DNA of 64,000 nt from Falsiroseomonas bella (GTDB lineage Bacteria > Pseudomonadota > Alphaproteobacteria > Acetobacterales > Acetobacteraceae), in NCBI RefSeq assembly GCF_003173615.1, contig NZ_QGNA01000002.1:806001-870000 (forward strand). Reading direction: 5' to 3'. Within the stretch, counting starts at the first letter, position 1, and each line of letters starts with the position of its first letter. Under the pieces are notes generated by a model, which saw only the letters and a program-made list of their open reading frames with translations, was not told where the DNA came from and did no database searches. Both the position numbers and the translations under genes were made by a program. Shown here piece by piece: positions 43,281 to 64,000 of this stretch.

Positions 43281-43367
43281 GGCGGCATGGCAGGCGGGCG
43301 GGCGCGCGTTGTCAACGCCCCGCCGCCGCCGCATGATCGCGCCGCTCACGAACCCGGGAGAGAAGCA

Positions 43368-44378: not shown

Positions 44379-44869
44379 CGGTCATCGACCGGGCGCTCCG
44401 GCTGTTCTCGCGCGGGCTGCTGGCGCTCTCCGCCGCAGCCTGCGCGGGCATCCTCGGCCTCGTTCTTGCGGCCGTGGTGATGCGCTATGCCGTCGCCGCG
44501 CCCTTCCGCTTCACGGAGGAACTGTCGGGGCTGCTGCTCTCCGCCATGGCGTTCCTCGCGCTGCCCTTCGCCATGGCGGGCAACGCCAATATCCGCGTGA
44601 CGCTGCTGACCGAGCGGCTTGCGCCGTTGCCGCGCCGCATCGTCTGGGTGATCGGCCAGCTGATCATGATGGCGTTCTGCGCCATCTTCGCGTGGGAAGC
44701 CTGGGGCATCGCGGAGTTCACCATCCGCCTGAACCTGAGCAGCGAGCAGGCGCGGCTGCCGCTCGGTCCCTGGACGGCGCTGATGCCCGCCTGCCTGGCG
44801 GTCACCGGCTTCATCGCCGCCTGGGCGGCGCTGCAGCCCCCGCCCGAGGACAGGCCGCAGGCGCTGTGA
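44375..44869 (+). CDS. TRAP transporter small permease, DctQ type
   Basis: A 164-residue membrane protein with four hydrophobic helices (about 16–36, 48–66, 84–103 and 130–150), the standard DctQ topology. GTG start overlapping the binding-protein stop (GTGA). Its own stop overlaps the next GTG the same way. Confidence 0.85.
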   Translation: MTVIDRALRLFSRGLLALSAAACAGILGLVLAAVVMRYAVAAPFRFTEELSGLLLSAMAFLALPFAMAGNANIRVTLLTERLAPLPRRIVWVIGQLIMMAFCAIFAWEAWGIAEFTIRLNLSSEQARLPLGPWTALMPACLAVTGFIAAWAALQPPPEDRPQAL

Positions 44870-46155: not shown

Positions 46156-47259
46156 TCACTTGCTCTCTGGCTGCGCGCCCAGTGCGCGCCGGATCGGCGC
46201 CGGCAGGATCGGCGCCTTCAGGAGGTCTATCGTCACGAAGGCGCCGACACCCGGCAGCTTGGTCTGCGCGCCTTCCAGCGGCCCCGGCGCGAAGGGATCG
46301 GGGCCGACGCCCGCGGGCAGCGGCTTCCAGCCGAGATCGGCGCCGGCGCCGATCTGAAGGTTGACGCCCGGGACGACGCCCCAGTTCGCCAGCCCCGATG
46401 CCAGCGTCACGTTCCCCTGTGCATCCAGCGACCAGGTGAAGTCCAGGGAGAGCGTCATTTGCGGGAACCAGGTGATCTTCTCATGCGCAAGACCGAGCAT
46501 GTCGTCGCCGGAGAAGGAGGCTTTCAGAAGTGTCGGTCCGTTCGGCGTGGAGGGCAGCACGTAGCGGAAATCGGTGAGCGTCGCGTAGGGGATCAGGCCG
46601 ATCGGCGCGACGAGGTTGAAGTCTGACAGCGCCTTGCGACCTTCCGGGTCGGAGAGCCCCGCTCCGAGGCCAAGCCCATAGGTCGCGGCGCCGAAGCCGA
46701 TCACGCCGACCTGCCCGCCCGTGCCGAGCTGGTCCCACTGGCGCAGTGCAAGGGCCTTGGCCGGCTCCAGCAATTCCTTCTTGATGCGTGGATCGTCCTT
46801 CGCGGCGTCCTTCGCGATCTTCATGCCGGTCTCAAGGCTGTTGGCCGCTTCCTCCGGCTTCTTCTCCTCCTCCAGCTGCACGGCCGGACCATGCGCGCCC
46901 TGCTGCACCACATGCGCAAGCTCGTGCCCGAGCAGCCGCCGCGTCTCCGCACTGTGCGGCTGCCATGCTCCAGGTGCGAAGCCAATGTCGCGCCCCGCCG
47001 CGAAGGCGCGCGCGCCGAGCCGCGTCGCCGCGCCGCTGTCGGCATGCAAGCGCACGCCGGACAGATCGGCGCCGAGGCGCTGTTCGAAGTAGCGCCGGTC
47101 GCGCGCCGGCAGATGCATGCCCTGGCCGAGCCCGAGCGCAGCCGGCGCCCGCGTCGGCGCGGCCCTCGCACCCGCCTCCGGTCCGCGCTGCGCGGCATGG
47201 TCGGCGGCACGCTCCCGCCCCGCATGGCGCAGCACGGGGACAGGCGGCGCGTGCCTCAT
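46156..47259 (-). CDS. eCIS-core domain (DUF4157) HExxH protein of contractile injection cluster
   Basis: A 367-residue protein with an eCIS-core/DUF4157 domain (about 44–122) ending in the zinc-protease-like H112-E-L-A-H116 in GHELAHVVQQG. DUF4157 proteins are strongly linked to extracellular contractile injection clusters, where several are cargo or toxins. The N-terminal 40 residues are flexible. The rest (about 130–367) has no recognised domain: a Glu/Lys linker, a Gly-rich hydrophobic stretch near 178 and alternating beta-type segments. The ATG overlaps the ATPase stop by four bases, and it is the last gene of the cluster. Cargo function is inference. Confidence 0.8.
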   Translation of the reverse strand: MRHAPPVPVLRHAGRERAADHAAQRGPEAGARAAPTRAPAALGLGQGMHLPARDRRYFEQRLGADLSGVRLHADSGAATRLGARAFAAGRDIGFAPGAWQPHSAETRRLLGHELAHVVQQGAHGPAVQLEEEKKPEEAANSLETGMKIAKDAAKDDPRIKKELLEPAKALALRQWDQLGTGGQVGVIGFGAATYGLGLGAGLSDPEGRKALSDFNLVAPIGLIPYATLTDFRYVLPSTPNGPTLLKASFSGDDMLGLAHEKITWFPQMTLSLDFTWSLDAQGNVTLASGLANWGVVPGVNLQIGAGADLGWKPLPAGVGPDPFAPGPLEGAQTKLPGVGAFVTIDLLKAPILPAPIRRALGAQPESK

Positions 47260-49103
47260 GTCGTCAGCCCGTGCGGCACGGGGCGGCCGGCCTTTGCGAA
47301 TTCCTGCGCAAGCGCCGCGTGCAGCAGCTTCGCGCCGATGCGCTCGCCGGCCTCGGCGGCGGCATAGGCGGCGGTCAGCGCGGCGTTGCGGATCTCGCCG
47401 CCGGTGACCTCGCAGCTCGTCGCGAGCGTGGCGAGGTCGAGCCCTGGGGCGAGCAGCGCAGCCGGCAGGTGCGCGCGCCACAGCGCCAGGCGCTGCGCCG
47501 CGTTGGGGCGGCGGAAGGGGACGGTGAGGTCGAAGCGCCGCAGGAAGGCCTCGTCCATGCCTTCCGCCAGGTTGGTGGCAAGCAGCGCGACGCCGTCGAA
47601 GCGTTCCAGCCGCTGCAGCAGGTAGTTGACCTCGATGTTGGCGTAGCGGTCATGCGCGTCCTGCACCGCGGTGCGCTTGCCGAACAGCGCGTCGGCCTCG
47701 TCGAAGAACAGCACGGCGCAGAATCCCTCGGCGGCCGCGAAGAGCTCCGAGAGGTTCTTCTCCGTCTCGCCGATGTATTTCGAGACGATGCGCGAGAGAT
47801 CGGCCGCGAGCAGCGGCAGGCCGAGGCGCAGCGCGACGGCCTCGGCGGCCAGCGTCTTTCCCGTGCCGGGATCGCCGGTGAGCAGCGCGACCAGCGCGCT
47901 GCCGCCGGCATCCATGCCCCATCGCTCCCGCACGGTGGCGCGGTGGCGCGTGCGGCGCACCACCTCCTCCAGCTGCGCCTGCGTCACCGGGTCCAGCACC
48001 AGCCGGTCCCAGGCGACCTGTGGCTGGCGCAGCGTGGCGAGGCGGGCGGCGCGCGGTGGCGACACTTCCATGCGTGCGGCCAGCAGCGCTGCGGGATCGG
48101 GCGCGTGCGCCGCCGCGGCAATGGCCGCGATGTCGGCCTCCGCCATCCAGCTTTGTGCGGCAAGGGCCGTGGCGTCCGGCTCCGGCAGGTCGGGGCGCGC
48201 CTGTTGCCAGCGGGCGCGCTGTTCCGCCAACAGTGGCCGCGGCACGCGCAGATGCCGGCGCGGCACCAGGCGGCCGAGCACGGCCTCGGCGCCGATCACC
48301 GCGACGGGCGCGATCGGCGCGGCGTTGGGACCTGTCAGCGCCTCGCCCTCGCCCAGCAGCGCGACGAAGCCGCCGCTCGCCCCGGCCAGTGCGCCGGCCT
48401 CGGCCCAGGGCGGCGGCGCGGGTGCCGTGCCGCGCGGCGGCGGATGCAGCAGGAGCGTCGGGCCGGCGAGCGCCAGCGCCTCCGCCGCGCGCTCGACGCG
48501 CGCGCTGTCCAGCAGCAGCAGCGGTGGCTCGACGCTCCGCGCCCAGGCGCGCAGCGCCGCGACCGTGTCGGCGAGGCTGCCGGGCCTTGCTTCCGTCGCC
48601 GGCACGCGCTGCACGATCCAGCCCTCCGCCGTCGTCTCCGGCAGGGCGCCGTCGAGGATTGCGAGCAGCGTCGGCGTCGGGTCCAGCCGGCGTTCCGCCG
48701 GCGGCTGCGCGGGATCGCCCGCGCGCAGCAGACCGGCGCGCCACAGCGGGCTGTCGCGCAGCGCCTGCCGTGGCGCGGCGTCGTCGGTTGCCGACAGAAG
48801 CAGGCGCAGCGCTCGCCCGGCGGGGAGGCGTCGCGCGCCGCGCGTCAGCGCCTCCACCGCTTCCGCCGCGCGATCGTCGAGCGCGGGCAGCACGGCCAGG
48901 CCGAGCAGGTCGAGATCGAAGGCGGAAAGGCGTGCGGCGCGTGCGAGGCGTGCGAAGGGCGTGTCCGTGGCGGTCAGCGCCGCCATCAGCGCATCCTCGT
49001 CCGCAGGCACCGCCCAGCCCGCATCCGGGACAGGCGGCGCCAGGCGCGCGGCGGCGATCGCGAGCAGCAGCGTGACCGGATCGGGCTTCACTGGCCGGCT
49101 CAT
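47256..49103 (-). CDS. AAA+ ATPase of contractile injection system (Afp15-like)
   Basis: A 615-residue protein with a variable Ala/Pro-rich N-terminal half and a C-terminal AAA+ module. Walker A GDPGTGKT (about 408–415) and Walker B LFFDEAD (about 464–470) are followed by sensor and arginine-finger regions (LLATNLAEGMDEAFLRRF). Afp15-type ATPases terminate sheath or tube assembly in eCIS particles; ClpV-type features of type VI secretion are absent. The start is an ATG that shares one base with the tape-measure-like gene stop; ATGA overlap with the downstream eCIS-core gene. Confidence 0.88.
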   Translation of the reverse strand: MSRPVKPDPVTLLLAIAAARLAPPVPDAGWAVPADEDALMAALTATDTPFARLARAARLSAFDLDLLGLAVLPALDDRAAEAVEALTRGARRLPAGRALRLLLSATDDAAPRQALRDSPLWRAGLLRAGDPAQPPAERRLDPTPTLLAILDGALPETTAEGWIVQRVPATEARPGSLADTVAALRAWARSVEPPLLLLDSARVERAAEALALAGPTLLLHPPPRGTAPAPPPWAEAGALAGASGGFVALLGEGEALTGPNAAPIAPVAVIGAEAVLGRLVPRRHLRVPRPLLAEQRARWQQARPDLPEPDATALAAQSWMAEADIAAIAAAAHAPDPAALLAARMEVSPPRAARLATLRQPQVAWDRLVLDPVTQAQLEEVVRRTRHRATVRERWGMDAGGSALVALLTGDPGTGKTLAAEAVALRLGLPLLAADLSRIVSKYIGETEKNLSELFAAAEGFCAVLFFDEADALFGKRTAVQDAHDRYANIEVNYLLQRLERFDGVALLATNLAEGMDEAFLRRFDLTVPFRRPNAAQRLALWRAHLPAALLAPGLDLATLATSCEVTGGEIRNAALTAAYAAAEAGERIGAKLLHAALAQEFAKAGRPVPHGLTT

Positions 49104-50620
49104 CACGCGCCGTAGCGGAAGGCGATGCGCCTGCCGAGCCACGGCACCCATCCCGGATCGATGTCCCAGCCGGCGCGCCGCAACGCGATGTCGGCGGCGT
49201 CGGGCGGCCAGACCAGCGTCGCCGCGCCCTCCTCCAGCAGCAGGCGGCCAGGCCGCAGCAGCAGCCGGCACAGTGCATCCGTGGCGGCATCCGCCGCGAA
49301 GGGATCCCTGCCATAGGCGCGCCGCAGCGCGGCCGGCGCGTGCGCAGTGCCCGATGGCGCCGCGGCCAGCAGCGCAGCGAGTGCGTCCTCCGCCTCGACG
49401 GCGAGCGACGGCGCCGCCCGCACCGCATCGAGCGGCTCGTCCGGCGGCGGGGCGCCGGCGAAGAGCGCGAGCAGCGGCCGGTCGCGTTCCAGCGCGGCGC
49501 GGCAGGCGGCGGGCGGCAGGGGCGCGGCGAGGCGTTGTAGCGCGACAAGCCCGAGCGCGAGCAGCCGCTCCGGCAGCGCCTCGCCGAGCGACAGCCAGGC
49601 GGGGCGTAGCCTTGCAAGCGGGCGGATCAGCAGCAGCAGGCCGCCGCACCACACCTCCGTCGCTTCCGTCTCCGCAGCCTCCGCGAGCCGTTCCGGCTTG
49701 GGTGCCGGCACGACGCCGTCGCCCGCATGCTGCGCATGGGGCATCGAAAGCGGCAATGCGGTGGCCGTCTCGAGCAGCGCGGCGAGATGGGCGGCCTGTG
49801 CCGGGGCATGCTTCAGAAGGGCGGCGGCGAGCCAGGGCAGGCGCTGCGCTGGCGACATCAGCGCCAGCGCGATGCGCAGCGATGCAGGCAGCAGCGCGAT
49901 GTGTCGCGCCGCCGCGTCGCGCGCCGCCGGCGTGGCGCGGAGCGGCGCAGCCATCCCGGATTCCGGCGGGCCGGAGACGGCGGGTGCCACCGTCTGCAAC
50001 GCCGCCTGCGCTGAATTGAGCAGCCTGAAGGCGAGCACTTGCGCCGGGCGTGCCTCCAGCCTCGCGGCAAGCGCTGGCAGTTGCGTCAGCACGTCGCTCA
50101 TCCGCCATGCTGCCCGCGCAGGATCGCGGGCGATCCAGCGCGCGAGGATGTCGGCCAACACGTCCTCTGCCGATCCTGCCGCATCGCCGATCAGCTCGGT
50201 GGTCCACCACGGCGCGGGCTCGCCCTGCGCAAGGGCGCGCAGCACGGCCATCTCCGCGGCCCAGAGGTCGCGGAAGCTGGCGGGGTTTTCGGCCTCCGCC
50301 ACGCCGGGCGCGTCTTGCTGCGCCGCGGCGTCGCGCGTGGCGGGCAAGGCAGACAGGATGGCCTGCGCCAGGGCCGAGGCCCACGCCTCGCCGAGCTCTG
50401 CTGCGCTCACCTCGCCCTGCAGATGCAGGCGGAGCTGCAGGCGCGGCAGCGCCACCACCGCATCCGGCGGCAGGCCTGCGCGCTCCAGCGCGGCGTCCAC
50501 CCCCGGGCCCATCCGGCGCAGGGCCTGGTCCAGCAGCGCGCGCGCGGCGAAGGCGCCTTCCGGCTCCGGCGCGCGGATGCGCGTCGCCAGCCGGCGGATC
50601 GCGACCTCCGGCGCCGCCAT
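49103..50620 (-). CDS. CIS tape-measure-like protein (Afp14/CIS_TMP family)
   Basis: A 505-residue helical, Ala/Leu-rich protein. It matches the pattern of the family annotated as CIS tape measure (PF19268): an opening like IRRLATRIRAP, then a VWCGGLLLLIRPLARL-like core near 320, and a conserved end DPGWVPWLGRRIAFRY. Position directly before the AAA+ gene is the usual place. Tape-measure proteins set tube length, but the exact length rule for this family is unclear. It is six bases from the next upstream gene. Confidence 0.66.
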   Translation of the reverse strand: MAAPEVAIRRLATRIRAPEPEGAFAARALLDQALRRMGPGVDAALERAGLPPDAVVALPRLQLRLHLQGEVSAAELGEAWASALAQAILSALPATRDAAAQQDAPGVAEAENPASFRDLWAAEMAVLRALAQGEPAPWWTTELIGDAAGSAEDVLADILARWIARDPARAAWRMSDVLTQLPALAARLEARPAQVLAFRLLNSAQAALQTVAPAVSGPPESGMAAPLRATPAARDAAARHIALLPASLRIALALMSPAQRLPWLAAALLKHAPAQAAHLAALLETATALPLSMPHAQHAGDGVVPAPKPERLAEAAETEATEVWCGGLLLLIRPLARLRPAWLSLGEALPERLLALGLVALQRLAAPLPPAACRAALERDRPLLALFAGAPPPDEPLDAVRAAPSLAVEAEDALAALLAAAPSGTAHAPAALRRAYGRDPFAADAATDALCRLLLRPGRLLLEEGAATLVWPPDAADIALRRAGWDIDPGWVPWLGRRIAFRYGA

Positions 50621-50626
50621 GCCGGC

Positions 50627-53446
50627 CTACTTCGTCCGGAAGCGGGTCAGCGCCAGCGTCCGCTCGACGCCGAGCGTGCGCACGAGCTTCGCCGCGCCAT
50701 CCAGCGAGGCGCGCGCCGCCGGGTCGGTGGCGGTGTCGCGCGCTTTCTCCAATGCGACGACGGGGTCCTCGCCGCGCGCGGCGACTTCCGTGACCTTGGC
50801 CACCACCTCCGGCGGCGGCGGCGCGGCGGCGACGGCCTTCGCCGCGACGGCGGCCTCCTCGCGCTCCTTCGCGATGGCGGCGGTGAAGGCTTCCAGCTTG
50901 TCCTCGCCGCCGAGCAGGCGCGCGGCATCCTGCGGTGGCCTGGCCAGCACCTCCGCCACCGTCACGCCCTGCGGTGCATCGGCGACGAAGTCCTTCGCGC
51001 TCTTCTCCGCCACGGCTTCGCGCATGGCGCCATAAGCGATGGTGGCTTCGGCGCTGTCGAAGGTGCGCACGCCGCCCGCGGTGACGCGGTCCGCCACGGT
51101 CGCCTCCGCCACCGTGGCGTTCTGGTCGCGCAGCGGCAATTGCGCGGCCTGGAAGCGGAGATCGGCGATGGTCGCCTTGGCCGCCGTCGGTGGCTGCACC
51201 GCGGAGATTACCTGCACCACCTGGAAGCCCGGATACTCCGCGGCATACGCGTCGGCGACGCGATCCAGCGCGACGCGCTCGCGCTCCGCGGGGTCGGCGA
51301 TCTCCGTCGCCAGCGCGGCTTCCTGCGCCGCGACGGCCTGCACGAATTCCGCATTGCGCGACGGCACGCGCAGGTCCGAGGAACTCAGCGCCGCGGCGCT
51401 GACCACGGCGTTGCGCACCGTGGGCTCGGCCAGCGCGGCCTCGGTCAGGGCGCGCTTCTCCGCGGGCTGCTGCAGATAGGCGGTGCGGTAGGCGGCCGTG
51501 GTCGTCATCGCCTGGTTCTGCGACTGCGCGAGCCTTGCGCCGCGCTGCAGGTCGCGTGCCAGTACCACCACGGCCTGGAGCAGCTCGATCACCATGACCA
51601 GCACCTCCAGCAGCACCATGCGCTGCTTCACGTACACCGCGAAATGGCGCGGCAGCATCTCCAGCGCCATCCGCGCTCGCAGCCCGGCCATGTTCGTCGC
51701 ATTCGTCAGGCGCGATTCCGTGGCGAACCAGGAGGGGGGCTGGGAACCAAGCCAGTCGGGAAGCTGCGCCTGCGCATCCTCCGGCACGACGCCGACCACG
51801 GGATGCGGCCGCGTCAGCCCCTGCAGCGGGATCACCACCTTCACGATCTCCGTGCGGCGGTTCACCAGCTCATCCAGGCCCATCACCTCGAAGATGTCGC
51901 CGAGGCGTTCGAGGAAGTTGTTGACCGGCACATTGGTGCCGGGCGTGTCGGGATTGGGCGCCGGCGTGTCGCGCGGGACGCGGCGCGCCACGCGCACCGG
52001 GTCCTTGTCGAAGACGTTCGAGAGGTCTTCGAGGATGTCGTCGTCATGCAGCGCAACAACGCAATAGGGGATCACGGTCGTGCCGCGGAAATAGGCGAAG
52101 GCCTGCTGCCGCGCCGCGGCGATCAGGCCGGAGACGAGCGCGATGCGCCCACCCGCGGCGGCGATCAGGCGGTCCAGCGCGGCATTGCCGGTGGAGCCGG
52201 TGCGGTCGCCGCGCGCGCCGATGGCGGCGGGATCGAGCGGCAGGAACCCGATGGGCGGGATATGGCGGAAGCCGCGCCGCCACAGGTTCAGCGCGCGGAT
52301 CTCGCTGTTCTGCACCAGCGGCTCCCGCGCCAGGCTCTCGGCCAGCATTGCCTGGAACTGGTGGATGCGCGCCCAGGCGGCGGCGCGCGGCGGTGCGCCG
52401 AAGCGCGTGCGGTGCCAGTCCTCGCCCGGCGTGGCCACGATGCTGCGGCGGGGGATCCAGGAATCGAGGAACAGCGCCGAGCCATCCGTGCCGAGCCAGA
52501 CCATCGCCAGCGCAACGGCGCCGGCCTCATGCCGCGCCGAGCCAACCGGCTTGCGGAAGCCGTCATCGGCGGCGAAATCCGGGTCCCAGCGCTTCAGCAG
52601 CGAATGCTCGAACAGGTCGAACCACCAGGCGGAGGCGGTGCCGCGCAGCGCCCAGGAGGAAGTCAGCCCGTCCTCCTCCGGCAGTTCCAGCGGCACGCGC
52701 ACAAGGGAGAGCCCGAAGGCGCCGCGCCAGCTTTCGGACTGGCAGGTGACCGGCGTCGGGCCGGCGCAGGCCTCGCCATAGACCTTGGCCTCGCCCTGGG
52801 GAACCTCGCCCGGCTCGATGACGAGCAGGTAGGGGCCGGGCCGCACCGCCGCGGTGCCGCCGGTGGGGCCGGCGGGATCGGGCACCAGGCAGACGCAGGG
52901 CGCGAACTCGATACCGCCCGGCGCGACCCGGCGCGGCGTGCTGCGCGACGCGCCGATCAGGTCGGCGATGGTGAAGTGGAAGGGCTGCGAGACGAGGATC
53001 GGGCGCCCGACATGATCGAAGGCGAGGCCGGGCGAGAGCGTCAGCGTCTGCGCCTTGCCGAAGCCGCCCGATGTCGGCGGCGTCGAGCGGTCCTCCACCA
53101 CCGGCATGGCGTTCAGCCCGTTTCCGGCGATCCCAAGGCCATAGGCGACGCCCGGCATCAGCGCATGCGCGTTAAGCCGGTCGCGCGCGTCGAAATAGAC
53201 GTCCTGGCGGCGCAGCGCCTCGGCGGTCAGGAAGCGGCCGTTGAACCAGTTCGTCCGAAGCAGCGCGTTCTGCCCGCGCGCATCGCCGGGCGCCGATTGC
53301 GGCAGACCTTCGTTGCCGCCGGTCGCCGGCAGGAAGGCGGCAAGTGCCGCTTCCTCGCTGGCGGAGAGCGTCGCCTGCGGGTTCTGCACCTTCTTCGCGA
53401 AGGCCATGAACAGCTTGGCCTGCTGGATCTGCATGGTGGTGCTCAT
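50627..53446 (-). CDS. Large CIS-cluster protein with 'TNWFNGRFLTAE' domain
   Basis: A 939-residue protein of no family I can name with certainty. The N-terminal region (about 60–160) shares a domain with the next gene upstream: a WFNGRFLTAEALRRQD-like core, then R-x-RL, a Y/WGL motif and PGLAFDHVGRPI. The middle (about 160–560) is mixed alpha/beta. A hydrophobic helix near 605–630 (LLEVLVMVIELLQAVVVLA) precedes an Ala-rich helical C-terminus that looks coiled-coil-like and stalk-forming. It probably belongs to the baseplate or its surface extension (inference). The start is an ATG 13 bases after the preceding gene's stop. Confidence 0.62.
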   Translation of the reverse strand: MSTTMQIQQAKLFMAFAKKVQNPQATLSASEEAALAAFLPATGGNEGLPQSAPGDARGQNALLRTNWFNGRFLTAEALRRQDVYFDARDRLNAHALMPGVAYGLGIAGNGLNAMPVVEDRSTPPTSGGFGKAQTLTLSPGLAFDHVGRPILVSQPFHFTIADLIGASRSTPRRVAPGGIEFAPCVCLVPDPAGPTGGTAAVRPGPYLLVIEPGEVPQGEAKVYGEACAGPTPVTCQSESWRGAFGLSLVRVPLELPEEDGLTSSWALRGTASAWWFDLFEHSLLKRWDPDFAADDGFRKPVGSARHEAGAVALAMVWLGTDGSALFLDSWIPRRSIVATPGEDWHRTRFGAPPRAAAWARIHQFQAMLAESLAREPLVQNSEIRALNLWRRGFRHIPPIGFLPLDPAAIGARGDRTGSTGNAALDRLIAAAGGRIALVSGLIAAARQQAFAYFRGTTVIPYCVVALHDDDILEDLSNVFDKDPVRVARRVPRDTPAPNPDTPGTNVPVNNFLERLGDIFEVMGLDELVNRRTEIVKVVIPLQGLTRPHPVVGVVPEDAQAQLPDWLGSQPPSWFATESRLTNATNMAGLRARMALEMLPRHFAVYVKQRMVLLEVLVMVIELLQAVVVLARDLQRGARLAQSQNQAMTTTAAYRTAYLQQPAEKRALTEAALAEPTVRNAVVSAAALSSSDLRVPSRNAEFVQAVAAQEAALATEIADPAERERVALDRVADAYAAEYPGFQVVQVISAVQPPTAAKATIADLRFQAAQLPLRDQNATVAEATVADRVTAGGVRTFDSAEATIAYGAMREAVAEKSAKDFVADAPQGVTVAEVLARPPQDAARLLGGEDKLEAFTAAIAKEREEAAVAAKAVAAAPPPPEVVAKVTEVAARGEDPVVALEKARDTATDPAARASLDGAAKLVRTLGVERTLALTRFRTK

Positions 53447-53459
53447 GGCGGCGGCCCTC

Positions 53460-54797
53460 TCAAGGCTCGAACCGTTGGACCAAGCTGACATCGCGGCCCG
53501 CGCCGGCGGGCAGCGGCGGCTCGCCGTCGAGGCCCGACAGAGGCTGTCCGCTCGCGTCCAGCAGCGGCGCCGCACCGGCGCCACGCAGCAGCAGCTGGTA
53601 GGTGGTGGCGTCCGTCCAGTCCTCGCCGATGGTGATCATGGCGAGACCGTTGCCGTCGGACGGCACCGCCCAGCCATTGAAGGTGGCGGGCACCCAGGCG
53701 CCGGTGCCGTCGCGGCGGAAGATGCGGATCGCGTCGGCGGAGAGGCTGGTTGCATCCGGCGGCGTGGTGAAGCGCGCATCCAGCACCACCTGCCCGCCTT
53801 CGCTGCGCGCCGCGAGGGAGACCAGCCGGAAAGGCCGTGCACCGCCGGGGCCGAGCAGGCGCAATCCGGTCGTCATTGCGGCGAGCGTCTGCACATCCGG
53901 CAGCAGCGCGCGCACGGCGTTGTCCGGCCCGGCGACGAGGCGCGTGCGCTCCGCCGGGTCACCGACGGGTTCGAGATCCACGGTCGCCAGCAGCAGCGGC
54001 GCGTCGTCGCCGCCCGACCAGAAGCGCGAGACCTGCGCCGGCGGGTTCAGGATGAAATCCAGCAGCCGCGTGCGCAGATCGCCCTGCCCGGCGAAGGCCG
54101 TCCAGTCGCGGGCAACCGGGTGCGGGTCGGGCGGCGCCTCCGCCATCAGGCAGAGCCGCCAGCGATCCTGCACGCGGGCATAGGCCGTGGCCTCGCCGCT
54201 GCTGGAGCAGGGCGGCGTGATGGCGGGGATCTCGTCGGCCAGGCAGGCGCGGTAGGAGAGCACGACATAGGCGCGACGGACGCGCGTCTCGGTCGGTGCT
54301 TCCTCCTCGTCCCCACCGGGGAGGGAATCCGCGCCGGAGGTCGTGTCGGCGCCTGGCGTCGTGTCCTCCGCCGGTGTCGTCTCCGCACCGCCGCCTTCGT
54401 CAGGCTCTTCCTCCTCCGGCTCGGGCGGTGCAGGCGGCGGCGCCAGGTCTGACCAGAAGGGCGTGAGGGCAAGGCCCGTCACATCCAGGCAAACTTCCTG
54501 CTCGACATGGATCAGCCGGCCCAGCGCATCCACCGCGAGGCCCGGCGCGCAGACCAGTTGCACCGTGTTGTTCGTCGCATCCTCCCGCGCCGAGACGCGC
54601 AGGCCCCACACCGTGCCGTGGCCGTGCAGCGTCGCGGTCAGCAGGCGTTCGCGCAGCAGGTGGTAGCGCTGCTCGGCGGCAAAATCCTCGGCGCCAAGCA
54701 ACTGGCCGTAGCTGTAGCGTAGGCGGGAGAACGGATCGCCCGGCGTCGCGGGGTCCGCATCCTCGAGCGGTGCGAACAGCGTGGCGGTGTCGCTCAT
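53460..54797 (-). CDS. CIS-cluster protein with shared 'YGQLLGAEDF' N-terminal domain
   Basis: A 445-residue protein whose N-terminal 110 residues share a domain with the 939-residue product: RYSYGQLLGAEDFAAEQ, then LRERL, GTVWGLRV and PGLAVDALGRLI. An acidic Pro/Glu/Thr-rich linker (about 120–175) separates it from a C-terminal region with beta-rich segments (for example FNGWAVPSDGNGLAMI). Baseplate- or fibre-associated function is likely from position; I do not recognise a named family. An ATG at 54797 gives an ATGA overlap; an in-frame ATG at 54803 is equally possible. Confidence 0.62.
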   Translation of the reverse strand: MSDTATLFAPLEDADPATPGDPFSRLRYSYGQLLGAEDFAAEQRYHLLRERLLTATLHGHGTVWGLRVSAREDATNNTVQLVCAPGLAVDALGRLIHVEQEVCLDVTGLALTPFWSDLAPPPAPPEPEEEEPDEGGGAETTPAEDTTPGADTTSGADSLPGGDEEEAPTETRVRRAYVVLSYRACLADEIPAITPPCSSSGEATAYARVQDRWRLCLMAEAPPDPHPVARDWTAFAGQGDLRTRLLDFILNPPAQVSRFWSGGDDAPLLLATVDLEPVGDPAERTRLVAGPDNAVRALLPDVQTLAAMTTGLRLLGPGGARPFRLVSLAARSEGGQVVLDARFTTPPDATSLSADAIRIFRRDGTGAWVPATFNGWAVPSDGNGLAMITIGEDWTDATTYQLLLRGAGAAPLLDASGQPLSGLDGEPPLPAGAGRDVSLVQRFEP

Positions 54798-57271: not shown

Positions 57272-57273
57272 GC

Positions 57274-59541
57274 TCAGCACTTCTCGACTTCGACAGGCAC
57301 CGGCATGCCGTCCACCGGCGGCGTCGGCTCCGGCGCGATCTCCTCGGCCTTCTCACCGATCGCGACGCGCACGCTGCGGATCACCGGCAACTGCCAGGCC
57401 AGCATCGGCACGCTGCCGGTGACCGGCGTGTTCTCCCCATCGGCGCCGATCGCTTCGCCTTCCAGCAGCACCTCGTTCACCAGGCGCACGCCCTGCACGC
57501 GCAGCGCCGCGGCTTCCGCGTCGCGGTCGCGCACGGCGCGTCCGAAGGGCCAGCCAGCGCCGTCGGGGCCATAGGGCGGCAGCGGCGCGAAATGCTGGCG
57601 CAGCGCGAGCTCCACCCAGCGCTTCAGCGTCTCTCCGCCCGTCCCGGGCTCGGCCTCGACCGCGACGGAGAGGTCCACCGGCACGTATTCCGGCGGCGTG
57701 ACGTAGAGCTCCGTCGTCACCAGGCGCCGCGGTTCCAGATGCGCGCAGACGCGGCGCAGCATCTCGCGATCCGGCGTCGGCGTGTCGGGGGTGACCGGAT
57801 CATGCGCGGGCAGCACGACGACCGTCACGGTCCCCGGCACGCCATCGGCGCGCTGCTGCGGCTTGTGGCGCGGCAAGACATGCGCGCGGCCGACCTTGCG
57901 GCCCGGAGTCTCCAGCGCGATCTCCACGAAATCCTCGGCGGCGACGGCGCGGTCATGCGTGCGCAGCGTGCGCGGGATGCGCGCGGTCGCCTCCGGGATC
58001 GTCTCGGCATCCTGGCCGCCTTCCGCGGGCAGGCTGTTCTCGCAACGCAGCCCGACGCGCGCGTTCTTCACGCGGCTGACCGCCATCGCCGGCACATTGC
58101 CGCGCGCCCCGCCGCCGGCACGGTAGCCGAGGCAGCGGATCGCCTCGCCGGGCAGCGGCATGCGGCCATGCAGCCCGTCGCCGAAGGTGATCGTGCCCTC
58201 GACCGGATCGAGCAGGTAGACGGGATCGTCCGGACCGCCGAGTGCGAGATCGTCGACCCGCGTCCACTTCTCCCAGCCCAGCGTGCCGCGCACCTGCACC
58301 AGCTCGCTGTCCTGCAGCATCGGCGCCTTGGAGAGCCGCACCATCTGCGCCGGCCGTCCATCACCATGGCCGAGCAGTTCGGGCGCGGCGGTGACGGCCT
58401 GCGTGGCGGAGAGGCCATTGCCCTCTACCAGGCGCAGCCGGATCGGCGGATGCGCGGCCTCGATACGCCGCAGGCTGACCCAGGCCAGCACGCGCGCGGC
58501 CTGCTTCGGATCATCCAGCCGGGGCGGCAGCGGGCCGACGCCGAGCAGGTCCGGATCAGGCGGATCGAAGCTGTCCTCCGTCCAGTCGCCCAGAACCGGC
58601 ACGCCGCCGCGCATGTCCGGCAGGCGCAGGCGCAGCGTGCCGGAGCGCGTCAGCCCCTCGGTCCTGTCGTCCACGATGGACAGCCGCTCGAACGCCGCGC
58701 GGTCCACGCGCTTCGAGGCGCCGTGGAAGCGGCCGGTTGAGATTTCCGCGCGTACCGGCCAGGGCGTGGCGGCCGTGCCGGGATCGGGGCAGCGCAGCAC
58801 GTCGGCCGGGCCGCACAACGCGTCATCGGTGCGCACGCCGAGGTTCAGGATGCGGCCCGAGATGCGTTCGCGCAACACCGCGAGCGCCTCCGCCGGTGTG
58901 CGCGGGGCGAGCGCTGCCAGCGCATCCTCGGGCGCGAGGAGGCACAGCCACAGCCGCCCGTCCAGCGTGCCCGCGCTGCTGGTCGGCGCCGGCAGCACGC
59001 CACCCTGCACCGCCGGCATCGGCACCGTCTGATAGGCCGAGAGCGTGCCCGGCGCGCTGCCGAGATGCGATTCCAGAAGCTGCGTGACGGCCTCCGTACC
59101 CTCGGCGGGCACCGCCTCGTCGTGGCGCGCCTTCACGAAGCCCGCGACCTCCAGCGGCAGGACGGTGATCTCCTCATCGGCCTCGAAGGAGACGGGGCCG
59201 GCGGCGCATTCCAGCCGCGGCGCGGTGGGCGAGAAATCCGGCGTTTCCGCATCGATGCCGCCCTTCGGCAGCATCAGCCGCAACTGCACGCGCGCGGGGA
59301 TCGCTGGCCGCGGCGGCAGGTTCAGCAGCTTGAGGAAGGCCAGCTTCGCCGCCTCCGGCGCGCGGTTCAGCCGATAGAGCAGGTTGTCGCCGAGGAAGGC
59401 GAAAAGCTCGATCAGCGTGACGCCGGGATCGGTCGGGCTGTGGTCCGTCCATTCCGGCGCATGGACCGGGATGCGCCGCACGAGCTCGTCGCGCAGATCC
59501 TGCCAGGATCGGTCGTCCAGGCGGGGTGGCTGGATCGCCAT
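57274..59541 (-). CDS. Baseplate J-like protein (Afp11-like, gp6 family)
   Basis: A 755-residue baseplate wedge protein of the putative baseplate assembly (gpJ/Afp11) type. The N-terminus WTDHSPTDPGVTLIELFAFL is typical, and later comes TFGDGLHGRMPLPG. The C-terminal half resembles gpJ core folds. It is the largest well-recognised baseplate component here. A strong GGGAGGAGG ribosome site sits within the last codons of the gp25-like gene. Its stop is two bases from the next gene's ATG. Confidence 0.85.
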   Translation of the reverse strand: MAIQPPRLDDRSWQDLRDELVRRIPVHAPEWTDHSPTDPGVTLIELFAFLGDNLLYRLNRAPEAAKLAFLKLLNLPPRPAIPARVQLRLMLPKGGIDAETPDFSPTAPRLECAAGPVSFEADEEITVLPLEVAGFVKARHDEAVPAEGTEAVTQLLESHLGSAPGTLSAYQTVPMPAVQGGVLPAPTSSAGTLDGRLWLCLLAPEDALAALAPRTPAEALAVLRERISGRILNLGVRTDDALCGPADVLRCPDPGTAATPWPVRAEISTGRFHGASKRVDRAAFERLSIVDDRTEGLTRSGTLRLRLPDMRGGVPVLGDWTEDSFDPPDPDLLGVGPLPPRLDDPKQAARVLAWVSLRRIEAAHPPIRLRLVEGNGLSATQAVTAAPELLGHGDGRPAQMVRLSKAPMLQDSELVQVRGTLGWEKWTRVDDLALGGPDDPVYLLDPVEGTITFGDGLHGRMPLPGEAIRCLGYRAGGGARGNVPAMAVSRVKNARVGLRCENSLPAEGGQDAETIPEATARIPRTLRTHDRAVAAEDFVEIALETPGRKVGRAHVLPRHKPQQRADGVPGTVTVVVLPAHDPVTPDTPTPDREMLRRVCAHLEPRRLVTTELYVTPPEYVPVDLSVAVEAEPGTGGETLKRWVELALRQHFAPLPPYGPDGAGWPFGRAVRDRDAEAAALRVQGVRLVNEVLLEGEAIGADGENTPVTGSVPMLAWQLPVIRSVRVAIGEKAEEIAPEPTPPVDGMPVPVEVEKC

Positions 59542-59544
59542 GGC

Positions 59545-59940
59545 TCAGCCTCCTCCCTGCAGGTTCAGCCCGACCGTCGCCGCCTGCGGCACCGCGCTGC
59601 CGGGGATGCGGAAGCGCACGGTGATCTCCAGCCGCTCCGGCTCGCGCGGTGCGGTGGCTATCTCCACGCCTTCCAGCTTCAGCCGCGGCAGGTCTCGCCC
59701 AATCGCGTCCTCGATCGTCAGGCGCATGCGCGTCCGCGTTTCCAGGCTGTTCGGCTGGAACAGGAAGCGGCGCAGGCCGGCGCCGAACAGCGGCCGGCCG
59801 ATGCGCTCGCCGGGCTCGGTCAGCAGCACCGCGCGCACCGCCTGGTCGGCGGCCTCGGGATCCTCGATCCAGCCCCAGCCGGCGGGGCCGACCAGCGGAA
59901 GACGGACGCCGCGCAGCGGCCTGGACTGCGTTCCGCTCAT
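59545..59940 (-). CDS. gp25-like baseplate wedge protein (Afp9-like)
   Basis: A 131-residue GPW/gp25 family protein. Conserved segments include GERIGRPLFGAGLRRFLFQPN (about 44–64) and the following ERLEITVRF. In T4 and eCIS particles gp25 contacts the sheath. The last three residues are Gly-Gly-Gly because the codons double as the ribosome site of the J-like gene. ATGA overlap with the upstream gene's stop. Confidence 0.85.
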   Translation of the reverse strand: MSGTQSRPLRGVRLPLVGPAGWGWIEDPEAADQAVRAVLLTEPGERIGRPLFGAGLRRFLFQPNSLETRTRMRLTIEDAIGRDLPRLKLEGVEIATAPREPERLEITVRFRIPGSAVPQAATVGLNLQGGG

Positions 59941-62417
59941 GACGATTTCTTCGGCACGGGGATGGGGATGCAGAACTTCAGCAGCAGCATCCAGAAGAAG
60001 CCCGGGATCAGGATCAGGATCGAGAAGATGATGCTGAACAGGATGAAGGCGCAGATGGTCAGCACGGGGATGCCGAAGCTGCAGATCCAGCCGATGCCCC
60101 AGGCGCGCTTGGTGTCCTCGGGTTCCTCGCCGGTGATGTAGCTGCTGTTGGGCGGCGCGGCGAAGGCGGCGAAGGGCTTTGCACGCGCCTTCGCCATGCG
60201 CGGGATGTCGCGGATCAGCTTCGGGATGTCGGGCAGCTGCACCGTGGCGGGCTTGGCGCCGAGGATGTCGGTGGGCTCCGCGATGCTGAACGGCTCGCTG
60301 CCGAGCGTCCAGACGATCGTCTCCTTCTCGCATCTGTCGCGGCCGGCCACGCGCGCCCAGCACCAGACGGCGTAGAGGCTGTCATGGTCGTAGCGCTTGC
60401 GCGGCACGCGCGCCTCGTCGCGCGCGACGCGCAGCGCGACCGCCTGGTTCGCATAGCGTGCGGCGAGCGAGATGCCGAGGGATGCGATGGCCAGCGATGT
60501 CGGTGTCGCGCCGGGCAGGCCAAGCAGGCCGCGCGCCGGTTGCTCCAGAACTTCCAGCCCCTGCACACGCAGGATCGTCGGATCCGATGCCCCGCCGGTC
60601 AGCTGGCCGATGCGGCCGGCGATGCTCGTAGCGCGCGCGTCGAGGCGCGCATTCTGTTCCTCGTCGAAGGCCGTGCCCGCGGGCGCCACGCCCGTCTCGA
60701 ACGCGGCGAAGGCATCTTCCATCCGCCGCGCCGCCTCATGCGCATCCCATGCGCGCAGGTCGCCCGTGCCCGGCGGTGTGCGAAGGTCGAGTGGCGGCCA
60801 TGTCGGCGCATCCGGCGTGCCACGCCATGCCTCGAGCCCGAGCGCGGCGGCGATCTCCTCGCCCAACGCGCCGGGCGTGCCGGCGGGCACGCCGCCCTGC
60901 ATGGCAATCAGCGAGGCGGTCTCCGCATCCGGTCCGAACATCTGCCGTCGCAGCGTGGCGGCGAGTCCGATGCGCATCACGCGGAGCCGCAGCAGGACGC
61001 AGGCCCAGAGCATGCCGGCATCCTCGGGGTTCACGCCGACGGAGACGCCACCGGTCGCGGGCGGCACCGGCGTGCCGTTACGGAAGGCGGTCGCCACCTG
61101 GCGCAGCCGGTGGTCGAGTAGGATGCGCCAGGAAGGGCGGTTCGCCGTGTAGTTCTCCGCGCCCCAGACCGAGCCGAAGCGTTCCGTCCGACGGCTGCCA
61201 TCGGCCGCCCAGGTGCCAAGCAGGTCGCGCGCGCGTCCGAGCCACAGCCCCGCGGTCTCAGGCTCGTCCGCGTCGAGCGCATCCGCATCAACCGTGGCCG
61301 GTGCCAGTACGGAGAAGCCGGCGGCCAGCATGGCGCCGAGCATGCGATCCAGTGCGCTTGCCACCGCCTGGTCCGCCGGTCCGGCCGGCGGTCCACCGCT
61401 GCCGATGAAGCCGTCCACCGTGTTCCAGGCATTCGCGATCTCGGCGGAACTCGGCTGTGCCGGCAGGACGGTGGCGTCCAGCAGATCGCCCAGCGCGGCG
61501 TTGATCGTTGTCGCCATCGTCGGCGCGGCGAGCGCAGCCTGCGCAACGGTGTCGGTCGCGCGCTGCTGTAGCGCGGAGACGGTCTCTGCCGGCGAGAGCG
61601 GCACTGCATCGCCCGCCTGCTCGGCCGAGGAGAAGACCGGAAGGTAGCCGTACAGCGTGCAATGCCGCGCGGCCGCGCCCGCCGCCGCATCCGGCTGCAG
61701 CAGCGCGAGCTTCGCGCTGTCCAGCGCCGTCGGCAGCGGCGTGTCCGCGGGCAGGCCGAGCCGCGCGCGCAGCGCCACTTCCTGCCCGGCATAGGCGCCT
61801 GCCGCGATCGCCTGCGGATCGAGCTGAGCGATCGGCAGCGCAAGCTCCGTCCAGACGCCGCGCTTGCCGTCCGCGCTGATCCAGTCCTCCCAGCGCTCGC
61901 ACGTGCGATCCGGCCGCAGCCGCCGCACGACCGCACCGGAGGCGACGATCCGCGCGCGGTCCACCGGCGGGAAGCCGAGGCGGCGGCACACCAGGTCGAA
62001 GGCGACGAAGGTGAAGCGCTGGTGCAGCGGGAGGTAGAGCTTGCGCAGCCACGGCGGCGTGCCCGCCGGAATGCCGTCGCCGGGCAGCCCGTCATCCTCG
62101 ATGGCCAGCGGCTCGGCCCGTTTCAGCGTGATCGGATAGAGCGCACTGCCCGCGGCATCCAGCACGCCGGAAGGCGGCTCCGACCAGTCGCGCCAGGGCA
62201 GCAGCTTCGGCAGCGCCTGCGGATTGGCGACGGCCGCGAGAAAATCCTCGACGAAGCTCGTGCCCTCGAAGCTCAGCAGGGGCGGCTGCGCGGCCTCCGG
62301 CATGGCCGTGCCGCGCAGGAAAAAGGGTGTCGCGGCGACGAGCGTCTCCCGTGGCGCGTGCTTGACCGCCGGGACGATGAGGCGCCTGCGCGCGCGGGGG
62401 GCGAGGTCCAGCGGCAT
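59937..62417 (-). CDS. Large CIS-cluster protein with hydrophobic C-terminal tail
   Basis: An 826-residue protein that I cannot assign to a named family. The bulk is soluble, Ala/Pro-rich helical sequence with segments such as LRKLYLPLHQRFTFVAFDL near 125 and a central helical part. The C-terminus (about 774–818) is strongly hydrophobic (ICSFGIPVLTICAFILFSI, then ILILIPGFFWMLLL), consistent with one or two membrane-spanning helices, followed by a short Lys/Ser end. It lies between spike and gp25 genes and overlaps its neighbours by 1 and 4 bases. It may anchor the baseplate in a membrane (inference). Confidence 0.58.
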   Translation of the reverse strand: MPLDLAPRARRRLIVPAVKHAPRETLVAATPFFLRGTAMPEAAQPPLLSFEGTSFVEDFLAAVANPQALPKLLPWRDWSEPPSGVLDAAGSALYPITLKRAEPLAIEDDGLPGDGIPAGTPPWLRKLYLPLHQRFTFVAFDLVCRRLGFPPVDRARIVASGAVVRRLRPDRTCERWEDWISADGKRGVWTELALPIAQLDPQAIAAGAYAGQEVALRARLGLPADTPLPTALDSAKLALLQPDAAAGAAARHCTLYGYLPVFSSAEQAGDAVPLSPAETVSALQQRATDTVAQAALAAPTMATTINAALGDLLDATVLPAQPSSAEIANAWNTVDGFIGSGGPPAGPADQAVASALDRMLGAMLAAGFSVLAPATVDADALDADEPETAGLWLGRARDLLGTWAADGSRRTERFGSVWGAENYTANRPSWRILLDHRLRQVATAFRNGTPVPPATGGVSVGVNPEDAGMLWACVLLRLRVMRIGLAATLRRQMFGPDAETASLIAMQGGVPAGTPGALGEEIAAALGLEAWRGTPDAPTWPPLDLRTPPGTGDLRAWDAHEAARRMEDAFAAFETGVAPAGTAFDEEQNARLDARATSIAGRIGQLTGGASDPTILRVQGLEVLEQPARGLLGLPGATPTSLAIASLGISLAARYANQAVALRVARDEARVPRKRYDHDSLYAVWCWARVAGRDRCEKETIVWTLGSEPFSIAEPTDILGAKPATVQLPDIPKLIRDIPRMAKARAKPFAAFAAPPNSSYITGEEPEDTKRAWGIGWICSFGIPVLTICAFILFSIIFSILILIPGFFWMLLLKFCIPIPVPKKSS

Positions 62418-63106
62418 CACCAGACGTTCCCGGCGCCGGGTGTGTAGCTGGCGCTGATCACCGAATTGGTGATGAGCGTGTCGCATTGGACGACGCCGGA
62501 GAAGCGGCTCATGCCAGCATCCACCTGCACCATGCCCGCGCTGACGGAAAGCTGTGCCGGGGCGTTGATGGTGACGCGCGTATTCGCCGTGATCTCGACA
62601 TTGCCCGCCGCATCCATCTTCATCGTGACGCCATTGGTGTGCGTGAGCGTGACGGTGCCGCCGGAGGCATCGTCCAGCGTCAGCTTGTGACCCCCCTGCG
62701 TCTCCACCTCCACCTTCTCGGCGCCAGCCGTGTCGTCCAGCAGCACGCGGTGGCCCGAGCGCGAGGTGATGGAGCGCAGGTTGTTCTGCGCATCCATGGT
62801 TTCGGGCGGCGCATCCACGCCGTTCCACAGCGCGCCGATCACGTAGGGCCGGCTGGCATCGCCGCCGTGGAAGGCGACCAGCACCTCGTCGCCGGGTTCC
62901 GGGATGAACCAGCTTCCGCGGTCGGCACCGGCCATCATCGTGGCCAGCCGCGCCCAGGCCTGCGCATTCGCCGCATCCGCGCCGAGCCAGGGCAGCTCCA
63001 CCTTCACGCGGCCCTGGCCGTCGGGGTCCTGCACGTCGCGCACGAGGGCGGGATAGACGCCGGCGAGGACGGGGCGGCTGAAGCCGCCGAAATCGAGCGG
63101 GGTCAT
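62417..63106 (-). CDS. Spike protein, gp5/VgrG OB-fold type
   Basis: A 229-residue protein. An N-terminal OB-fold domain (about 10–95) has the conserved YPALVRDVQDPDGQGRVKVELPWL and PEPGDEVLVAF segments of baseplate V/VgrG spikes. After it come short glycine- and valine-containing repeats (VEVETQGGHKLTL ... ITANTRVTINAPAQ) resembling a triple-stranded beta-helix needle. It is separate from the hub, which in Afp8/VgrG is one fused protein. ATGA overlap with the hub gene. Confidence 0.84.
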   Translation of the reverse strand: MTPLDFGGFSRPVLAGVYPALVRDVQDPDGQGRVKVELPWLGADAANAQAWARLATMMAGADRGSWFIPEPGDEVLVAFHGGDASRPYVIGALWNGVDAPPETMDAQNNLRSITSRSGHRVLLDDTAGAEKVEVETQGGHKLTLDDASGGTVTLTHTNGVTMKMDAAGNVEITANTRVTINAPAQLSVSAGMVQVDAGMSRFSGVVQCDTLITNSVISASYTPGAGNVW

Positions 63107-63999
63107 GCGCCGGCCTCCAGCGCGGCGCGGCAGGCGTCGAACTCCGTGCGGTAGCCCGCCGCCTGGTCGAAGCTGTGGCGCACCGCCGTCACTTCCCATA
63201 CGCCGGAGAACCAGGCGCCGAGGTCCAGAAGCTCGACGCGCGCGCCGACCCGCAGCTGCGGCGTGCCGCGCGTGACGCCGCGGCCGCGCAGGAAATGCCG
63301 CGCGCGATGCTGCATGCGCGCTTCCGCCAGCCGACGCGCCTCGTCCGTGCTGGCCGGCGCGTCCAGATGCAGGTCCTCTGGCGCATCGCCCCAGGCTTCC
63401 CGCACGATCTCGGCACCCGTGCGGCCCTGGCCCTCGGCGACGGCGCGGGCGGCGTCCGTGCCGGCTTCCTCGGTGATCGCCTGCTTGCCCCCGACGTCCC
63501 AGCCATGCACGCGCACGGCGCTGCGCTGCTCGGCCAGGTCGGCCTTCAGCTCGAAACGGATCAGCTCGTTCAGGCGGGTCAGCGTGACGGGCCGGGCGCC
63601 GTCGCTCCGCGTCGTCACCTTCACCGCGCCGTCGCGCAGCGTGATGCGCGCATCCAGTGCTCGGGCGCGTTCGCGGAGAAGAGCGAGTTCGCTCTGTCCC
63701 ACTTGCCAGCGCTGGGTGTGGGAGGGTCCATCCGCCTGCACATCGGCGCGCAGCCCCGCATCCTGTACGAGCTGGTTCAGGATGTCGGCGTCGCTGCTCT
63801 GCTCGAACACGCGCGACCGGCGCTTCAGCCTGAGCCGCGCCAGATTGTCCTCTGCGAGGATGGTGAGCTCGGGCGGGCGCTGCTCGGGGTAGAGCGCGCC
63901 GATGGCGCTGATGGTGCCATCGAACACCGTCTCGCTGCTGCCGCCGACGTTGAAGGCGATGGCGATGGCCTTGCCGAAGTCCAGCCGGCTCCGGTCGAA
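63103..63999 (-). CDS. Baseplate hub protein, gpD/VgrG N-terminal type (partial)
   Basis: The visible 299 residues are the C-terminal part of a hub protein; the frame is open to the right edge, so the N-terminus is beyond the window. Visible content is typical of late-control gpD/VgrG hub domains: SSDADILNQLVQDAGL, SELALLRERARALDARI, VRVHGWDVGGKQ, and an ending that tapers into the spike gene overlap. It is the first gene seen of the CIS operon. Confidence 0.78.
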   Translation of the reverse strand, partial: FDRSRLDFGKAIAIAFNVGGSSETVFDGTISAIGALYPEQRPPELTILAEDNLARLRLKRRSRVFEQSSDADILNQLVQDAGLRADVQADGPSHTQRWQVGQSELALLRERARALDARITLRDGAVKVTTRSDGARPVTLTRLNELIRFELKADLAEQRSAVRVHGWDVGGKQAITEEAGTDAARAVAEGQGRTGAEIVREAWGDAPEDLHLDAPASTDEARRLAEARMQHRARHFLRGRGVTRGTPQLRVGARVELLDLGAWFSGVWEVTAVRHSFDQAAGYRTEFDACRAALEAGA

Positions 64000-64000
64000 A

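Follow-up and report, generated by a model that had tools for sequence, protein, structure and literature searches.

Contractile injection systems (CIS) may be released, cell-anchored or self-firing, and they reach membranes by various means. The type VI secretion system (T6SS) is attached to the membrane by TssJLM. The cytoplasmic CIS of Streptomyces coelicolor (CISSc, type IId) requires a dedicated membrane protein, CisA, in which a membrane span is followed by a C-terminal domain and which was described as undetected in purified particles (PMC12237407). The thylakoid CIS of Anabaena is held on the membrane by a C-terminal membrane helix of its fibre-like Cis13 protein (PMC8894136), and extended particles of the T6SS-mode CIS of the haloarchaeon Halogeometricum borinquense stand perpendicular to the cytoplasmic membrane (PMC11566945). 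For extracellular CIS (eCIS), Geller et al. placed the PAAR spike tip among the core domains (PMC8213781), and a study on Roseiflexus stated that predicting the mode of action of a CIS from sequence alone 'can be unreliable' (PMC12998442). Here, we analysed a 64,000-nucleotide stretch of the Falsiroseomonas bella genome (hereafter called the window; C7:806001-870000 in a 5.94-Mb, 14-contig genome), with its contig extended rightward past 64 kb. It harbours the distal part of an eCIS-type gene cluster in which the usual place of PAAR, between the spike and gp25 genes, codes for an 827-residue protein with a C-terminal membrane-type segment (hereafter called the slot protein), a candidate membrane-tethered spike cap. 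All coordinates are window-based.

By its gene content, the locus is one complete eCIS-type contractile injection system of the phage-tail type. The sheath, tube, hub, spike, gp25, J and Pvc16 cap genes by which eCIS gene clusters are recognized lie in one cluster, together with eCIS_core (DUF4157) and AAA+ genes. It resembles the type Ia systems, the antifeeding prophage (Afp) and the Photorhabdus virulence cassettes (PVC), in its two tubes, sheaths, CIS_tube, hub, spike, gp25, J, tail-I, tape measure, AAA+ and Pvc16_N cap. It differs from them in that no PAAR was found, in the membrane-type slot protein, in a spike end reading YTPGAGNxW and in that no fibre was recognized; two proteins have weak CIS13-like N-termini, as might be sought for an Afp13-like fibre, and no receptor-binding domain was matched. 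The first-pass annotation of the window had described the distal half of an Afp/PVC-like extracellular system. That these genes form the distal part of a cluster of the eCIS type is borne out by the component families and by the genes past 64 kb, where the extension that it had called for yielded CIS_tube, two tubes, two sheaths and Pvc16_N, which complete the cluster. The PAAR search that it had also proposed returned no PAAR gene in the cluster. The label 'Afp/PVC-like extracellular' is thus unsupported as it stood, since a protein with a membrane-type segment is encoded in the PAAR slot; the best solved relative of the sheath is that of the haloarchaeal membrane-bound CIS (9ezm, E-value 4e-111), and any release from the cell would be hypothetical.

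An ordinary prophage tail or a T6SS would have sheath, tube, gp25, J and spike families in common with this cluster, and we nevertheless regard both as extremely improbable, given that the eCIS set is complete, Pvc16_N, CIS_tube, AAA+ and eCIS_core included. No match to TssJ, TssL, TssM or TssBC was found among the scanned open reading frames (ORFs) of the cluster and its flanks, to which this search was limited, and no terminase, capsid, integrase or lysis gene among the subset of ORFs scanned between 42 and 80 kb; the first-pass annotation had likewise seen no capsid, terminase, integrase or TssBC-like gene in the window. A search of 50,697 phage records with a single relative of the slot protein as the query gave 0 matches.

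The slot gene overlaps each of its neighbours, the spike and gp25 genes, by four bases, and its product matched nothing of note in Pfam or NCBIfam. To its relatives, it aligns weakly over most of its length, with a common C-terminal motif around ICSF-x-IP and invariant Cys, Trp and Pro positions. Among 70 slot proteins, including that of the window, none matched Pfam at 0.01, one matched NCBIfam at chance level, and the PAAR motif (PF05488) was found in none. When one genome per species was scanned, we obtained 287 pattern matches and 99 relatives; the best 80 of the relatives were analysed, three of these being contigs of seeds. The 80 come from about nine phyla (Pseudomonadota, Myxococcota, Acidobacteriota, Verrucomicrobiota, Cyanobacteriota, Nitrospirota, Actinomycetota, Chloroflexota and Gemmatimonadota); metagenome bins are numerous among them, and the isolates include Sphingomonas, Nocardioides, Kineosphaera, Myxococcus, Caulobacter and Azohydromonas. 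The gene order recurs: the slot gene is followed by gp25 in all 80 loci (within 400 bases in 79) and by J in 79, all but a 3.2-kb contig, and the spike gene precedes it in 77, the other three having only 27-1151 bases ahead of the match. Likewise, all 14 IMG/VR contigs with the slot gene have CIS genes around it, gp25 preceding it in three of them when genes are sorted by start.

In the DNA stretches searched (7 of 80 stretches being shorter than 8 kb), no PAAR-like ORF was found in any of the 81 lineage loci, that of the window among them, nor were PAAR matches found in the 14 IMG/VR contigs or in six further lineage genomes. For comparison, we collected 20 control CIS clusters devoid of the slot gene and then 14 more, two of which (L148 and L149) are incomplete in the stretch searched. 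In the first 20, the interval between spike and gp25 offers little room or a short gene; 13 have an ORF there, and 9 of the 10 scanned with Pfam proved to be PAAR, the tenth matching nothing. Because PAAR lies in the slot of these controls and the slot gene stands at the same place without it, the latter occupies the PAAR slot, and a replacement of the PAAR spike tip has apparently taken place in the lineage. The slot protein differs from PAAR tips in its lack of the PAAR motif, in its length, approximately five to eight times greater, and in its membrane-type segment. In four control clusters of the cyanobacterial phylum (that of L034), the slot is occupied twice by PAAR and once by another short ORF and is empty once, and none of the four has the lineage spike tail described below. 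In one alphaproteobacterial CIS, a 256-residue ORF between spike and gp25 (L118:12614-13384) was unmatched by our PAAR profile and is perhaps a third kind of occupant.

Residues 775-822 of the slot protein form the most hydrophobic stretch of the whole cluster, with a maximum of 3.01. A stretch of this kind is found in all 70 full-length members, with a hydropathy of at least 2.30 and a length of 39-41 residues in every case, and none of the 70 harbours a signal-like stretch within its first 60 residues. The other proteins of the cluster do not exceed 2.0, except the 939-residue protein, which reaches 2.63 in an acid-containing stretch; the latter is probably not a membrane helix, because the corresponding stretches of eight close relatives reach 1.88-2.09 with acidic residues. 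The slot protein comprises a beta domain, which weak fold matches suggest to be immunoglobulin-like, a helical insert and the C-terminal hydrophobic segment of ~40 residues. In an AlphaFold2 model of a relative (L027), this segment is one 33-residue helix, with a predicted local distance difference test score (pLDDT) of 82.9 for the model and of 51-88 per ten-residue block in the segment.

The spike co-varies with the slot. The spike of the cluster ends in SYTPGAGNVW, the usual form in the lineage being SYTPGAGN[IV]W, and the pattern [YF][TS]xGxGNxW is found at the exact spike end in 77 of 77 lineage loci as well as in the window. A first, narrower pattern had covered 72 of 78 and a second one 76 of 78, the final one having been set after viewing the list; in six fresh genomes outside this definition, the spike end was found in all six. 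It also occurs in 13 of the 14 IMG/VR contigs and in none of the controls (0/19 for the first set, in which no spike was matched in one of the 20 clusters, and 0/14 for the second, 0/33 in total). All 16 PAAR-bearing controls have spikes ending in [IL]N. As the lineage end is kept in 48 of 48 loci in which the spike and slot genes overlap and in 29 of 29 in which they do not, and as it is encoded by 69 distinct DNA strings, it is not forced by the gene overlap. These figures are counts rather than probabilities, the related sequences not being independent. We regard the changed spike end as the strongest sign that the slot protein acts at the spike tip.

The lineage is likely to be a clade. 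In a quick IQ-TREE analysis of 92 rows covering the conserved region of J (arbitrary root, several long-branched control rows), a single branch with a Shimodaira-Hasegawa-like approximate likelihood ratio test (SH-aLRT) value of 99 has all 72 rows of the lineage, own included, on the same side, and no clustering as strong was obtained in 500 shuffles. All ten J rows from Actinomycetes (the class of L058) that lack the slot gene lie outside it. The closest J protein to that of the window is the one of Caulobacter vibrioides T5M6; they belong to a ten-row subgroup in which complete genes code for slot proteins of 807-845 residues and a second sheath gene follows the main tube gene. Within the bacterial family of the window, a match was found in 5 of 299 genomes, own included, and three loci of this family (L021, L027 and L035) combine a hydrophobic-tailed slot protein with the lineage spike end.

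We also determined how frequent the hydrophobic tail is among CIS-bearing genomes, using CIS_tube as a marker, with the proviso that near-cut-off matches may stem from other tails. CIS_tube-positive genomes amounted to 10 of 387 in the class of the window, 53 of 344 in Actinomycetes, 31 of 244 in the cyanobacterial phylum and 47 of 251 in the phylum of L081; the F. bella genome has a single match. The tail profile was found in 1 of 10, 2 of 53, 1 of 31 and 6 of 47 of these, respectively, or in 0 of 9, 1 of 52, 0 of 30 and 5 of 46 when the centre genomes, which carry the slot gene by choice, are excluded. The class of the window was searched with a small profile, and six of its ten genomes again with a large one. 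Besides that of the window, nine genomes were positive; in eight, the tail match lies ~5 kb or less from CIS_tube, and in the ninth (G680), the tail match and CIS_tube lie on separate contigs.

These observations led us to propose that the slot protein is a membrane-tethered spike cap in place of PAAR, a reading that we hold to be evenly poised between right and wrong. We infer from the sequences a contact between spike tail and cap, an insertion into a membrane of a given side and owner, and an export of cargo, as follows. The spike tail YTPGAGN(I/V)W would bind the slot protein, whose hydrophobic tail, with neither signal peptide nor recognized chaperone, would enter the membrane of the producer post-translationally. 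Anchored in the cytoplasmic membrane, the C-terminal segment would hold the loaded, extended particle there, tip first, and firing of the baseplate would drive the spike through that same membrane. The cargo, presumably the eCIS_core protein, would be carried out of the cell or released in a lysing cell. The slot protein thus suggests docking on a membrane instead of free-floating machines. The wider proposal, that a PAAR-less CIS class across about nine phyla uses a membrane-protein spike cap, one protein that docks, sharpens the tip and breaches, is a tentative one, which we put slightly short of an even balance.

If true, such a cap would be a further solution to the attachment of a CIS to a membrane, unlike TssJLM, Cis13, CisA or the haloarchaeal candidate. 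As in Anabaena, a protein of the particle would carry a C-terminal membrane-type helix, found there in Cis13; unlike CisA, the slot protein has its membrane-type segment at its extreme C-terminus. The machine itself is of a known kind, and what is new, as far as the literature searched goes, is the PAAR-less tip with a membrane-type replacement. We found no description of such a tip in that literature, part of which was accessible as excerpts; the paper defining the CIS subtypes, which was outside this search, may list the gene, without a name, as specific to a subtype.

Several observations weigh against the tethered cap. The AlphaFold2 model of the F. bella slot protein has a broken, low-confidence helix in the segment (pLDDT 68.0 overall and 42-64 there), and given this low confidence, a hairpin, a single span and a helix buried in an oligomer are indistinguishable. 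An acidic residue is present inside the hydrophobic stretch in 12 of the 70 members, a second stretch of at least 1.8 in mid-protein in 5 of 70, and the mean charges of -1.3 before and +1.4 after the segment leave the topology undecided. The haloarchaeal anchor candidate, Hbor_38620, is another kind of protein, with six predicted helices and a gene upstream of the core cluster (PMC11566945). PAAR was detected in 11 of the first 20 controls and 5 of the later 14, and its absence from 9 of each set makes PAAR loss alone unspecific; moreover, the PAAR profile was built from 11 of the 13 control slot ORFs, from the same 11 controls that it then finds. Among the PAAR-less controls, six (L105, L108, L114, L144, L145 and L146) also have spikes ending in [IL]N, and two of the 29 non-overlapping loci (L053 and L097) are doubtful, their chosen slot gene starts lying 756 and 516 bases past the spike. 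Finally, the spike may sharpen itself without a cap, and the membrane may be that of the producer or that of the target.

The last point leads to the somewhat unlikely possibility of a piercing tip, in which a classical eCIS is released and the segment at its tip inserts into the target membrane so that the tube or cargo can cross it, much as PAAR effectors of T6SS have transmembrane segments. The co-variation of slot and spike tip fits a piercing tip as well as a tether, the particle parts are otherwise complete, tape measure included, and the CIS13-like proteins could carry fibres; against it, no chaperone-like gene for the 40-residue hydrophobic stretch was recognized among the scanned cluster proteins, and the segment is fixed, with one per cluster, unlike variable effectors. 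The slot protein might also be a structural adaptor of the baseplate or spike, with its hydrophobic helix buried in the particle and no membrane involved. Its fixed stretch length, its invariant Cys, Trp and Pro residues and the acidic residues noted above would suit oligomer packing too. However, we consider such an adaptor distinctly unlikely, as hydropathy maxima of at least 2.3 are unusual in buried helices and exceed those of the other proteins of the cluster apart from the 939-residue one.

An unlikely reading, which we rank below the piercing tip and above the buried adaptor, is self-lysis: the slot protein would serve a cytoplasmic CIS as a holin-like or docking component, and this CIS would fire into the membrane of its producer and kill it, as has been proposed for the Streptomyces CIS with CisA. 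The precedent is apt, since CisA is a membrane protein of the producer required for the firing of cytoplasmic particles (PMC12237407), and the sheath matches that of the cytoplasmic Streptomyces CIS (8bky, E-value 1e-104) nearly as well as the haloarchaeal one, which also counts against the tether. However, the cisA gene follows the baseplate genes, outside the PAAR slot (PMC12237407). Strongly hydrophobic ORFs were found after J in 6 of the first 20 controls, none of which has the lineage spike end, and in none of the 64 lineage loci with at least 6 kb of downstream sequence, where ORFs starting within 9 kb on that side were considered; we judged CisA-likeness by hydropathy, CisA itself not being the query. 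The hydrophobic ORFs of the six controls (L105, L107, L109, L110, L115 and L116) are near the place described for CisA and may be related to it.

The lineage, which occurs in environmental and predatory bacteria of many phyla, is defined by two marks that vary together: the PAAR slot codes for a hydrophobic-tailed protein, and the spike end is altered. Surveys based on Pfam domains would miss the replacement of PAAR, because the slot protein matches no Pfam family. If the tether is true, a large group of systems now classed as extracellular would act from inside cells, and a piercing tip would represent a PAAR-free route across membranes. Should the tip-tether class be real, one could tell the mode of action from DNA by these two marks.

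The cluster forms one gene run on the minus strand, from 72068 to 46156 (25,913 bases, 25.9 kb), with a G+C content of 72.8%, compared with 72.4% for the window (Table 1). From hub to eCIS_core, 11 co-directional genes span 46156-64191, with junctions of -4, -4, -4, +3, +2, -4, +13, +6, -4 and -4 in transcription order. The first-pass annotation had correctly described this run, with all ten junctions being four-base overlaps or gaps of at most 13 bases as claimed; it had counted ten genes, and there are eleven, the hub gene extending past base 64000. The spacing of the genes would be consistent with the single transcript that it had proposed. Over the two intervals profiled (46.0-47.9 and 53.3-64.6 kb), codon-position G+C agrees with the chosen frames. 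Each start codon is a choice: for the 939-residue protein, the one at 53446 was picked by the gap, longer starts being available, and the AAA+ gene begins with GTG at 49106. The description of the surroundings as catabolic is fair, with genes for a tripartite ATP-independent periplasmic (TRAP) transporter on the left and, beyond Pvc16_N on the right, a family-5 solute-binding gene and flavin adenine dinucleotide (FAD) oxidoreductases.

Table 1. Features of the F. bella CIS locus, in window coordinates.
Feature	Position	Strand	Basis
TRAP transporter DctP, DctQ, DctM, left flank	43269-46155		
eCIS_core (DUF4157) protein, 367 residues, candidate cargo, last gene of the run	46156-47259	-	PF13699, E 1e-22 on longer ORF; -4 junction
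AAA+ ATPase, winged-helix-like N-terminal part, Afp15-like position	47256-49106	-	PF00004, E 1e-24; PF22977, E 2e-5, just below cut-off
Tape measure protein	49103-50620	-	PF19268 CIS_TMP, 27.1 bits (cut-off 27.8)
939-residue protein, weak CIS13-like N-terminal domain	50627-53446	-	NF053767, E 1e-4
445-residue protein, CIS13-like N-terminal domain	53460-54797	-	NF053767, E 3e-14, far below its cut-off
Tail-I (Tail_P2_I) / Cis12-like baseplate protein	54794-57271	-	TIGR02242, E 6e-17, above cut-off; NF053768, E 1e-23, below cut-off
Baseplate J-like protein (Baseplate_J, Afp11-like)	57274-59541	-	TIGR02243, E 7e-94
gp25-like baseplate protein (GPW_gp25, Afp9-like)	59545-59940	-	PF04965, E 2.5e-13 on longer ORF
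827-residue proposed membrane-tethered spike cap, PAAR slot	59937-62420	-	Family-less; same slot in 80/80 loci
C-terminal hydrophobic (membrane-type) segment of the 827-residue protein	59955-60098	-	Hydropathy maximum
Spike, OB domain and repeat region (Phage_base_V)	62417-63106	-	PF04717, E 8e-28 on longer ORF
Lineage-specific spike tail SYTPGAGNVW and stop codon	62417-62449	-	Spike-end comparison
Hub, gpD-like (Phage_GPD)	63103-64191, past window end at 64000	-	PF05954, E 3e-9
ORF of 65 codons and stop, between CIS_tube and hub	64188-64385 (L004:4188-4385)	-	Reading frame
CIS_tube	64389-65669	-	Family match
Second gp19 tube	65666-66160	-	Family match
Second sheath	66157-68313	-	Family match
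Main tube	68321-68776	-	Family match
Main sheath	68800-70647	-	Family match
Protein with carboxypeptidase-regulatory-like match	70660-71502	-	Weak match
Pvc16_N	71499-72068	-	Family match

ORFs similar to the 65-codon ORF between CIS_tube and hub were found in 9 of the 80 loci, every one of which has a long slot protein. A tRNA-Ser predicted by ARAGORN at 53944-54028 lies inside the reading frame of the 445-residue protein and has no Rfam tRNA match, and there is thus no supported tRNA in the operon. The tail-I gene harbours an in-frame palindromic element of ~108 bases (56855-56962, minus strand; inverted repeat 56892-56963), which adds 36 residues that are absent from the five relatives aligned over it. 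The pattern of the palindromic core has nine matches in the genome at up to 2 mismatches, counting both arms of the tail-I element, and a contig of a genome of the same genus (L017) ends at about this palindrome. Two further eCIS_core genes are located on contig C9 (L006:10993-12405, 470 residues, and L008:1193-3217, 674 residues); as no CIS structural matches were found in the surrounding 20 and 35 kb, they possibly code for unlinked cargo.

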